From Biomaibacter acetigenes (GTDB lineage Bacteria > Bacillota > Thermosediminibacteria > Thermosediminibacterales > Tepidanaerobacteraceae): a stretch of DNA of 64,000 bases. The position numbers and the translations under genes are program-made. Position 1 is the first letter of the stretch. Each line of letters opens with the position of its first letter. The notes beneath the pieces are model-generated. The model saw nothing but the letters and a program-made list of their open reading frames with translations, was not told where the DNA came from and ran no database searches. The stretch covers positions 2,666,001 through 2,730,000 of the forward strand of contig NZ_CP033169.1 in assembly GCF_003691585.1 (NCBI RefSeq), in the 5' to 3' direction. Positions 752 through 7,897 of this stretch are shown here, in pieces.

Positions 752-1932
752 TTATACCTGTCCTGCCAAAAGATTTTTGACCTTAACAATCTTGCCATCC
801 CTGATATATACTCTGGGAACGCGCCTGGATACGCCGCAGACCACTTCGTAGTTGATGGTGCCTATGATCCTTGCTATTTCATCGGTGGAAACTGTGGGGT
901 CGCCCGAACCTCCGAAAAGCAGCACATCTTCCCCCGGTTCCACGGCACCCTGTATGTCGGTGACATCCACCATGCACTGGTCCATGCATACCCTTCCCAC
1001 TACCGGAGCCCTTTGTCCTTTTATCATCACCGAAGCTCTGGATGAAAGCAGCCTGGAGTAGCCGTCGGCATATCCCACCGGTAATGTGGCGATGATGCTC
1101 TGTCTTCTGGTGATGAAGGTACCGCCGTAGCTGATGGCCCTTCCTGCTCCAAGTATCTTAACGTGGGAAACCCTGGTTTTGAGGGACATAACGGGCTTAA
1201 GGTCAATTCTACTCTTATCCACCTCATCTGAAGGGTAAAGACCGTAAAGGATTATCCCCGGACGCACCATGTCAAGATGGGTATGGGGCAGTTCCATAAT
1301 GGCTGCGCTGTTGGCCGCGTGTTTTATAGGGATTTTATATCCATCTTTTTCCAGAGTTTCGACCACCGCCATGTATTTTTTGAACTGCTCCTCGGTGAAA
1401 GTCTTGTCCTTTTCATCGGCTTTGGAGAAGTGGGTAAACATGCCTTCCACTTCAAGGTTTTCCATGGAAAATAATTTTTTGATTTCGTCGATAGAAGAAG
1501 GTTCAGCCTGAAATCCTATGCGGCTCATGCCGGTATCCAGCTTGATGTGAATCTTTGCCTTTTTGTCCTGTTTTTGGCTTCCAGAGAAAGTTTTTGAGCC
1601 GATGATACATTATAAACGGTCTGGGTGATATCATGCTCTACTATTTTATCAAATTGTTCTTCAGGTGTAAAACCCAAAATAAGGATGGGAGCTTTTATGC
1701 CCTCTTTTCTTAGCTGCAGTGCTTCGTCCAGGAATGCCACGGCAAGGTAGGAAACTCCGCAGTCAAGGGCAGTTTGGGCCACTTCCAGGACTCCATGACC
1801 GTAGCCGTCGGCTTTTACTACGGCGCAGATTGCGGCCTGGGGGTCAGCAACCCGCCGTATCTCTTTGAGGTTGTGCTTGAGATTGTCCAGATTTATCTCG
1901 GCTCTGGTGGGCCGGAGGTGTGTAAGGTCCAT
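752..1932 (-). pseudogene. alr: Alanine racemase, frameshifted as read
   Basis: PLP-dependent interconversion of L- and D-alanine for peptidoglycan. The N-terminal part has the PLP lysine motif AVVKADGYGHG and ends in a wrong frame after KNRTK; the C-terminal part resumes at DTGMSRIGF and carries [19 protein letters not shown] and the catalytic-tyrosine region [13 protein letters not shown]. The break lies in a run of five A on the sense strand (T at 1560-1564); one extra A restores [21 protein letters not shown] and a 393-residue protein of normal length. Start ATG at 1932 has AGGAG eight bases upstream. Either a sequencing undercall or a real loss; if real, another racemase must supply D-alanine. 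Lies between nnr and mazEF as in Bacillus. Confidence 0.9.
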
Positions 1933-2085
1933 GGGGCATGCTCCTTTCTGGTGTGCTGGGTTCAAACATATGAATTTGTTTATCTCCGCTTCGCTAAGGG
2001 AATCTAAATGGCTTCACAACACAAGCTTTATGCAAGCCAGTTAACCCCCATCAAAGCTTTTTAATTTATAATCAGCCACATAACA

Positions 2086-6178: not shown

Positions 6179-6352
6179 TCCGCAAGACCCCCTTGCCGTA
6201 TCGTTAGACCTCTTAAAAATTATATCATTATTTATAAAATTTTCCACTGAGGTTAAGGTAATATGCTTTTGCAGGGCTAGACCCTCAAGATGATATATAT
6301 AACATTTAAAACGAAATAGTTACCTTTTAAAAATCTATCAATTTATAAACAC

Positions 6353-6381
6353 TTGTTCGTAATATTATTTAGTATTATAAT
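6353..6381 (+). promoter_or_regulatory. Promoter of the LAGLIDADG gene
   Basis: TTGTTC at 6353-6358 and a perfect TATAAT at 6376-6381 with a 17-base spacer, 44 bases before the ATG. The gene therefore appears to have its own transcription signal. Confidence 0.6.
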
Positions 6382-6424
6382 TGCTTATAAGACTTACATT
6401 TTATTTTTATTAAAGGGTGATTAC

Positions 6425-6832
6425 ATGACAGACACTGAAAAAGCTTATATTGCAGGTATTATTGATGGAGAGGGTAGTATAACTTTAGTAAAGCAACATA
6501 AAAATAGAAATCCTTCACCAATGATTTCTGTAGCTTCAACTGATTTAGAGCTTTTAATTTGGATGAAAAAAACTATTAACGGTGGAACCATTATAAAAAA
6601 GAAGAACTATAATCCTGAAAATCATCTCAATTCATATGTTTTTAATTTGACCTACAATAAGGCATTAAAATTGCTGCAAGAAATAGAACCATATTTAGTA
6701 ATCGAACGAAAAAAGCAAAGAGCAAGATTGCTAATTAACGAATATAAACAGGTGACGCCAAGAAATGGAAAGTATAATGAAGAGCTGGCAAAAAAAAGAG
6801 AGAAATTTTATAAAACATTTATATCTCTATAA
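6425..6832 (+). CDS. Free-standing single-motif LAGLIDADG homing endonuclease
   Basis: Small (135 aa) LAGLIDADG-fold protein. The one visible motif, AYIAGIIDGEGSI, is at the N terminus with the acidic metal ligand in the GEG position, so the enzyme would act as a homodimer on a near-palindromic site. The middle has alternating strands and the C terminus is Lys-rich. ATG at 6425 follows AAGGGTGAT and matches the family start. It is more AT-rich than its neighbours, a sign of transfer. It is not inside an intron: it converges tail to tail on ssrA and shares the hairpin at 6838-6853. The intron-bearing T-loop of ssrA is about 320 bases away, so it may be the mobility enzyme of that intron; the target site is inference. 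Confidence 0.82.
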   Translation: MTDTEKAYIAGIIDGEGSITLVKQHKNRNPSPMISVASTDLELLIWMKKTINGGTIIKKKNYNPENHLNSYVFNLTYNKALKLLQEIEPYLVIERKKQRARLLINEYKQVTPRNGKYNEELAKKREKFYKTFISL

Positions 6833-6837
6833 AAAAA

Positions 6838-6853
6838 ACACCCTCGCGGGTGT
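6838..6853 (-). terminator. Bidirectional terminator between ssrA and the LAGLIDADG gene
   Basis: ACACCC TCGC GGGTGT hairpin. On the minus strand it is followed by eight T, an excellent terminator for ssrA ten bases after the CCA end; on the plus strand it is followed by AATTTTCTTTT and can end the LAGLIDADG transcript. Confidence 0.85.
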
Positions 6854-6880
6854 AATTTTCTTTTGGTGGAGGCGAGGGGA

Positions 6881-7150
6881 CACATAGTCCGGTATTTTCA
6901 TACCGGTGCTGACTATATCTTTGGCTTACTGCAAAGCCACCCGGCGTGTTATAGAAGCTTATTTTTGCTTGATGCTTCTATCCTAGTATTCCCTATGATT
7001 ATTAGGGAACCTATAAGTCGATACAGGGCTGTAAGCTTGCGCCTCATACCCCTCGGTGTTACCATATCACTGTTACAAGCAGTGATGAAGGTTTCACCGA
7101 TAAAGCCGAGTTTTCACCCGTATGTCACCATACGGGGCGACTCTTTATGA
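6881..7150 (-). ncRNA. Group I self-splicing intron in the tmRNA T-loop
   Basis: About 270 nt, without an internal ORF. Its conserved core includes the S-element AAAGATATAGTC (plus 6911-6922), followed by a CCGGTA/TACCGG P9-like hairpin and a terminal G. Exon 1 ends ...CGAT; its last four bases pair with GTCG at intron positions 10-13, giving the expected U-G pair at the 5' splice site, and the adjoining GGGG/CCCC can extend P1 across a two-base bulge. Removing 7150..6881 restores a perfect tmRNA T arm, which fixes the borders to within about one base. Group I introns have been reported at this position in some bacterial tmRNA genes; autonomous splicing here is inferred. Confidence 0.88.
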
Positions 7151-7367
7151 ATCGAACCCCTGTCCGAAGGCACATCAATAAAAGCGTCTACAGGCTTATC
7201 TCCCGCTTTTGTTCTCGCCGGTTTTTCTCCCGGGAGCAGGATAAAAGATCGGCCAGCTCTTTAATTTTCTCCTATAGTGCCAGAGCTGCACTACGGGAAG
7301 ATCCCGGATTTATGACACCCTTTTCCCGGCCGCCGGGCACCGCCGGGGAGGGTGCGCTGCTATTTAA

Positions 7368-7397
7368 TTAAGCAGCGAGTGCTAATTCGTCTTTGGC
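7368..7397 (-). other. tmRNA proteolysis-tag reading frame (AKDELALAA)
   Basis: Within exon 1, TAAAC precedes resume codon GCC, and the frame reads A-K-D-E-L-A-L-A-A before TAA. The ALAA end is the usual degradation signal recognised by ClpXP-type proteases. The charged KDEL core is unusual next to the common NDENYALAA/NDDNYALAA type tags. Confidence 0.85.
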
Positions 7398-7544
7398 GTT
7401 TATTTTACGCTTCCGGATTTACGAGTCGGAAAGCTCGACCTGCAGCTTTTATCTCTGCCGCCCCCGTCGAAACCAAACGCCCCCGTATTTATTTTTCTGC
7501 AAGATTATTATACAACAAAAAAAATATTATATCAAGAAAAGTCG

Positions 7545-7875
7545 CTATGGTTCATAGATCATCTTCCGGGTCATGCCACCGTCGATCACAAGATTTATGC
7601 CGGTAATGAAGCTGTTCTCATCAGCTGTAAGAAAAAGACATGCTCTGGCGATATCTTCGGGCTTTCCCACGCGGCCTGCGGGGTGATGGAGATGGTCTAT
7701 TTCCCGTAGTTTTTCGTAGTCGCCTGTTTCTATCCAGCCGGGACTTATGGTGTTCACCCTTATGCGGTCAGGGCCCAGAGAAAGCGCCAGAGCATGGGTG
7801 AGGGAAAGTATCCCTCCCTTTGATGCCGCCCCGTCCGGAGCCCGTGACCACCACCACTTTATCTTTGAAATTCAT
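7545..7875 (-). pseudogene. Remnant of a short-chain dehydrogenase/reductase with internal deletion
   Basis: Starts like an SDR at ATG 7875 (GGAGGGGGAG ahead) with NFKDKVVVVTGSGRG, the Rossmann glycine motif. It then jumps, out of frame, to ASKGGILSLTHAL, the helix after the catalytic Tyr-x3-Lys, followed by RIRVNTISPGW, GRVGKPEDIARACLFL and INLVIDGGMT to the stop at 7545. About 130 central residues, including the catalytic Tyr, are missing. The join lies in a GC-rich stretch (around 7825-7840). Immediately upstream of ssrA on the same strand. Confidence 0.8.
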
Positions 7876-7897
7876 GCCAGCTATCTCTCCCCCTCCG

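Follow-up and report, generated by a model that had tools for sequence, protein, structure and literature searches.

A tmRNA group I intron and an adjacent free-standing LAGLIDADG gene as a candidate collaborative homing pair on a bacterial chromosome

Introduction

How does a group I intron that encodes no endonuclease come to occupy the same position in the tmRNA genes of many bacteria? The question is raised by a 64,000-nucleotide stretch of the Biomaibacter acetigenes chromosome (the window), in which the T-loop of the tmRNA gene is interrupted by such an intron. Group I introns in tmRNA were reportedly described by Williams in 2002. A survey counts 883 tmRNAs of the intron form, distributed among 21 phyla and predominantly in Bacillota, with T-loop position 7 as the main site, a U before the intron, a G at its end and an average length of ~293 nt (PMC11915505). 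The intron alone is therefore ordinary and belongs to a known class. The T-loop, which a sequence-only reading of this DNA had called a reported but rare site, is the major known one, and "rare" needs qualifying, as we found the intron in 48 of 207 Clostridiaceae genomes and in ~18 of the 398 genomes of a phylum sample.

What remains a question is how these introns spread, since they occur in 21 phyla and yet only ~4% encode an endonuclease: a LAGLIDADG gene was found inside 36 of the 883 (4.1%), in P7.1 and P9 (PMC11915505). The fraction with an endonuclease gene is 54% among the group I introns of archaeal rRNA (PMC11915505). The survey counted in-intron endonucleases only, and flanking ones are absent from its report. 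Here we describe a LAGLIDADG gene just outside the tmRNA gene, which lies beyond the coordinates covered by the sequence-only reading and was missed there. The flanking endonuclease is what is new, the intron in the T-loop being already known.

Results

The split tmRNA gene and its joined exons

An Rfam covariance search detected the tmRNA with 161 bits (E 7.6e-65), split into two exons (Table 1). Exact removal of 270 nt joins the exons as AGGGG-TTCGATT-CCCCT-CGCCTCCACCA, an intact T-arm, and the joined T-arm and acceptor, AGGGGTTCGATTCCCCTCGCCTCCACCA, recur unchanged in 15 of 16 intronless tmRNAs from the same family or order. This bears out the earlier proposal that the T arm is rebuilt once about 270 nt are taken out. 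ARAGORN called no tmRNA in the window, as expected for the intron form. If this is the sole tmRNA gene, functional tmRNA would have to depend on splicing.

Just upstream of the tmRNA gene is a short-chain dehydrogenase-like remnant (7547-7880, minus strand) that has kept its start and end and lost its middle. Elsewhere in the window, an alanine racemase-like gene is split into two overlapping frames (752-1965, minus strand) by a frameshift or a sequencing error.

Table 1. Positions of the tmRNA gene, its intron and the neighbouring endonuclease gene in the window.
Feature	Position	Strand	Details
Split tmRNA gene	7484..6864	-	T-loop interrupted by intron, 7150..6881
tmRNA exon 1	7151..7484	-	5' acceptor strand to T-loop base 6; GGGGGCG...AGGGGTTCGAT; last bases TTCGAT, final base at 7151
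tmRNA tag reading frame	7368..7397	-	AKDELALAA-stop; read by eye
Group I intron	6881..7150	-	270 nt; U precedes, terminal G; P7.1 and P7.2 between P7 and P3'
Internal guide GAGTCG	7138..7143	-	P1 pairing with exon-end CGAT and intron TC
P2 hairpin	7117..7136	-	Double changes in 8/8 pairs
P7.1 hairpin	6989..7009	-	Consensus fold
P7.2 hairpin	6951..6981	-	Region that houses the in-intron endonuclease in phage relatives
P8 hairpin	6923..6938	-	Double changes in 5/5 pairs
S element AAAGATATAGTC	6911..6922	-	Includes P7 3' strand
P9 hairpin	6889..6906	-	
tmRNA exon 2, TCCCCTCGCCTCCACCA	6864..6880	-	T-loop base 7, T-stem, acceptor 3' strand, CCA
Terminator hairpin	6838..6853	both	T-run on each side; usable by tmRNA and endonuclease gene
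LAGLIDADG homing endonuclease (predicted)	6425..6832	+	Free-standing, 135 aa; preceded by AAAGGGTGATTAC; convergent with tmRNA
Segment with endonuclease, missing in G001	6198..6837		Boundaries approximate

The insert is a group I intron

The insert has a complete core, P1 to P9 with the P3/P7 pseudoknot, and the placement of P7.1 and P7.2 suggests what we take to be a group IA-like layout. The sequence-only reading had proposed the tmRNA and Intron_gpI covariance models as a check; both matched, Intron_gpI (RF00028) with 35.3 bits (E 1.7e-6), which is under its gathering score of 50, a curated threshold and not a biological requirement. RF00028 scores low for this subgroup generally (30-39 bits for two relatives), and the tmRNA intron is its one match in the genome. 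A model built from relatives gave 292 bits, though the window is among its seeds, and the intron fold has a z-score of -6.1.

Covariation was strong across an alignment of 15 homologous introns. An unbiased consensus fold of these sequences recovered P1, P2, P3, P4, P6, P7.1, P7.2 and P8 and also paired the T-stem halves across the intron, with compensated changes. Once the P7 pseudoknot had been put in manually, double changes were seen in 44 of 76 pairs, compared with a mean of 29 in shuffled alignments, and none of 500 shuffles reached 44; similarly, 90% of cells were paired, compared with 32-42% when the partners were slid. For the pseudoknot, 89.5% of P3 cells and 98% of P7 cells were paired in the 15 sequences. 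P3 is backed by double changes, while P7 is nearly invariant, so that its backing comes from conservation and position rather than covariation. The U.G at the 5' splice site (P1) and the 3'-terminal G were invariant in all 15 aligned introns, and a U before and a G at the end were present in 51/51 distinct introns among the fetched loci. The insert is thus a real group I intron, and chance is excluded as its source; the coordinates, guide pairing, S element and terminal G of the sequence-only reading were all correct to the base. Given this structure, the pre-tmRNA is likely to splice itself.

A free-standing LAGLIDADG gene faces the tmRNA gene

Between the tmRNA CCA and the endonuclease gene are ~32 bp, taken up solely by a hairpin that has a T-run on each strand, and the spacing between intron and endonuclease gene is less than 60 bp. 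The 135-aa protein matched Pfam LAGLIDADG_1 with 23.4 bits (cut-off 23.1), and its relatives with 29.7-31.1 bits. An AlphaFold model made from an alignment with 16 relatives (mean pLDDT 93.9) has the I-CreI fold, with Z ~14 over 122-124 residues against I-CreI and I-MsoI, and the acidic residues of the LAGLIDADG motif, D14 and E16, are invariant in the alignment with these relatives. For close homologue pairs, dN/dS was 0.035-0.31, which places the protein under selection. We therefore regard it as a predicted homing endonuclease that would cleave DNA, probably, given its single motif, as an I-CreI-type homodimer. A search of plasmids returned zero relatives of the protein.

The presence of an endonuclease gene next to the intron speaks for a mobile element and not for a regulator. 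The sequence-only reading had suggested that splicing efficiency sets tmRNA supply, and splicing would necessarily precede tmRNA maturation, but no regulatory element was seen and the intron is missing from most relatives in the family. We consider a regulatory role extremely unlikely.

Intron and endonuclease gene are associated on chromosomes

A scan of genome contigs returned 21 endonuclease loci. Most of them, from Clostridium, Schnuerera, Anaerovorax, Tepidanaerobacter and other genera, follow an intron-bearing tmRNA at ~40 bp in convergent orientation. The layout of the window recurs in Tepidanaerobacter sp. GT38 (G003), G031, G230 and Clostridium and Tissierellia relatives. Among the 207 Clostridiaceae genomes, the tmRNA intron was present in 23 of the 26 with a near-complete endonuclease and in 25 of the 181 others (odds ratio 48, Fisher p 2.6e-14, a test that ignores relatedness and so overstates the evidence); for the phylum sample, it was present in 6 of 8 endonuclease genomes. 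Of the Clostridiaceae endonuclease copies and fragments that share a contig with an intron-bearing tmRNA, all 33 were downstream and convergent, 20 of them 40-150 bp from the CCA and the others 0.3-55 kb away. Distant endonucleases with a tmRNA 3'-end piece beside them (L038, L044 and L047) are interpreted as genomic islands that have integrated at this gene. In one genus of five species, three species have both intron and endonuclease and two have the endonuclease only. The arrangement found here, an intron with no endonuclease gene of its own next to an independent one, is that of a collaborative homing pair.

A LAGLIDADG protein of a different, two-motif type is encoded directly behind an intron-bearing tmRNA, on the same strand, in G219 (L064 1801-2946, plus strand) and G133 (L065 292-1386, minus strand); its N-terminus matches an FCS-like zinc finger below the cut-off. 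Such a flanking position may have originated on more than one occasion. In G219:C60 (L064/L075) and G196:C37 (L066/L076), a further partial tmRNA 3' end, carrying an intron of its own, follows the first at 2.2 kb and 1.4 kb, respectively, as if left over from an inserted element. In G121 (L074), the intron model matched weakly at a DNA-polymerase-like reading frame and not at tmRNA, and this locus was excluded.

The two parts also occur apart

The nearest relative, G001, carries almost the same intron (the alignment shows three differences) and no endonuclease at the locus, where the next gene begins almost immediately past the terminator; a search of its genome found no homologue of the endonuclease. 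This weakens the reading of the LAGLIDADG protein as chiefly a maturase for splicing of the tmRNA intron. LAGLIDADG maturases do exist, for example that of a Thermotoga 23S rRNA intron cited in PMC3984707, but for 15 of the 48 Clostridiaceae introns no endonuclease was detectable in the genome, and L040/L045 are intact, intron-free copies under purifying selection (dN/dS 0.045). A maturase role therefore appears very unlikely.

Endonuclease sequence in the absence of an intron was found in G414, G416, G442 and L051, and an intact endonuclease together with an intronless tmRNA in G414, G416 and G592. In at least five endonuclease-only genomes (G442, G458, G523, G525 and G608), a piece lies directly behind an intact intronless tmRNA, and in several more it lies behind a displaced tmRNA end. 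The simplest rival to collaborative homing is suggested by such endonucleases and remnants behind intronless tmRNAs (L051, G442, G525, G458, G523, G608 and G007): the endonuclease would home alone to the 3' end of the tmRNA gene, neither part helping the other and the intron gaining at most incidentally, and both would simply favour one conserved gene. The Clostridiaceae odds ratio of 48 argues against this. An altered T-loop in endonuclease-bearing intronless tmRNAs, as a form of resistance, was dropped as an idea, given that a C before the intron site was present in 6 of 8 intronless Clostridiaceae tmRNAs with an endonuclease (≥75 aa) and in 71 of 104 without (p = 1.0). Distance matrices of endonuclease, intron and exon 1 were correlated (r 0.74-0.75, partial r 0.45), a result that does not separate joint horizontal transfer from vertical descent.

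Phage relatives cluster at tmRNA genes

Viral contigs (IMG/VR) contained 57 relatives of the endonuclease, and 24 of the best 30 were inside or at most 200 bp from a tmRNA gene. Three layouts were seen. For the first, the endonuclease gene is antisense within the P7.2 region of the T-loop intron, as a full reading of L183 showed; L171, L173, L176, L177, L184 and L186 have split intron-model matches like those of L183. We know of no description of phage tmRNA introns with an internal antisense LAGLIDADG gene, as in L171, L173, L176 and L183. For the second, the endonuclease is directly behind the tmRNA gene (L180, L185, L187, L189, L192 and L196), and for the third, it is at or inside permuted tmRNAs (L172, L174, L175, L178, L182, L188, L194 and L195), in which no intron was called. 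These permuted genes fit an endonuclease that homes alone, but the occurrence of the family inside the intron in phages speaks against it, and we consider solo homing unlikely overall. Among annotated phage records, we found no relative of the intron and only distant relatives of the endonuclease (29-39% identity). An Omnitrophica MAG (L052, 3485-4510) has, in this order, an intact tmRNA, a LAGLIDADG gene and a sequence resembling the 3' half of a T-loop intron.

The simplest reading of these loci is a tmRNA-focused endonuclease family. We lean towards the stronger view that a LAGLIDADG lineage has specialised in the tmRNA gene and tracks its standard, intron-bearing and permuted forms in bacteria and phages, its members occupying the intron, the space behind the gene, or a site within or next to permuted genes.

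Some endonuclease relatives adjoin ordinary phage tRNA genes (L181 3902-4595, in a large tRNA array, and L179 3705-3978). Pistol ribozymes near phage tmRNA genes, and in L185 a GOLLD RNA, were also detected (L183 5342-5409, L184 6106-6174 and L185 2788-3202).

Discussion

Collectively, the anatomy and conservation of the intron, its association with the endonuclease gene, and the fold of and selection on the protein make it probable that the T-loop intron and the free-standing LAGLIDADG endonuclease form a two-part mobile unit that moves by collaborative homing on a bacterial chromosome. We propose that the pre-tmRNA self-splices through the group I pathway, as its structure suggests, and so restores the T-loop. 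The endonuclease, probably an I-CreI-type homodimer, would cut uninterrupted tmRNA genes at or near the T-arm and acceptor, and the intron would split this cut site and keep the carrier's own tmRNA gene safe. Repair from the carrier could then copy the intron, the 17-bp exon 2 and the endonuclease gene jointly, over the short distance seen in the window. After fixation, either the endonuclease or the intron may decay separately; the absences and remnants described above would be the outcome, in whichever order they arose.

If true, the movement of tmRNA introns has a direct explanation in an endonuclease dedicated to the gene and encoded right beside it, and collaborative homing extends from phages, where the searchable literature places it, to bacterial chromosomes and non-coding RNA. 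A tmRNA-specialised lineage, if real, would explain the spread of introns that rarely encode their own endonuclease. The copies inside, outside and lost are material on whether endonucleases invade or leave introns, and such a lineage would offer a natural series for movement in both directions. Collaborative homing at tmRNA was not reported in the literature we searched, the coverage of which does not extend to the earliest tmRNA intron papers.

I-CreI and I-MsoI are encoded within group I introns. The window protein shares their fold and single LAGLIDADG motif at 18-24% identity but, unlike them, is encoded by a free-standing gene at tmRNA. The phage loci L171, L173, L176 and L183 have a homologous intron site and endonuclease (39-48% identity), antisense to the tmRNA as in the window; they differ in having the endonuclease gene within P7.2 of the intron, whereas that of the window lies outside. 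With the tmRNA introns of PMC11915505, the window intron has in common T-loop position 7, the preceding U and the terminal G, whereas its LAGLIDADG gene is outside both intron and tmRNA and on the opposite strand. Collaborative homing has been described in cyanophage S-PM2 and T7-like phages (PMC6083498, PMC3984707, PMC10448857). For F-CphI and psbA of S-PM2 (Zeng, Bonocora and Shub 2009, as presented in PMC6083498 and PMC3984707), cleavage was demonstrated, where for the window endonuclease it is predicted. F-CphI is an Endo VII-type enzyme acting on a phage protein-coding gene, in contrast to the LAGLIDADG protein encoded convergently with a chromosomal non-coding RNA gene; in both systems, an endonuclease-free intron lies beside a free-standing endonuclease gene.
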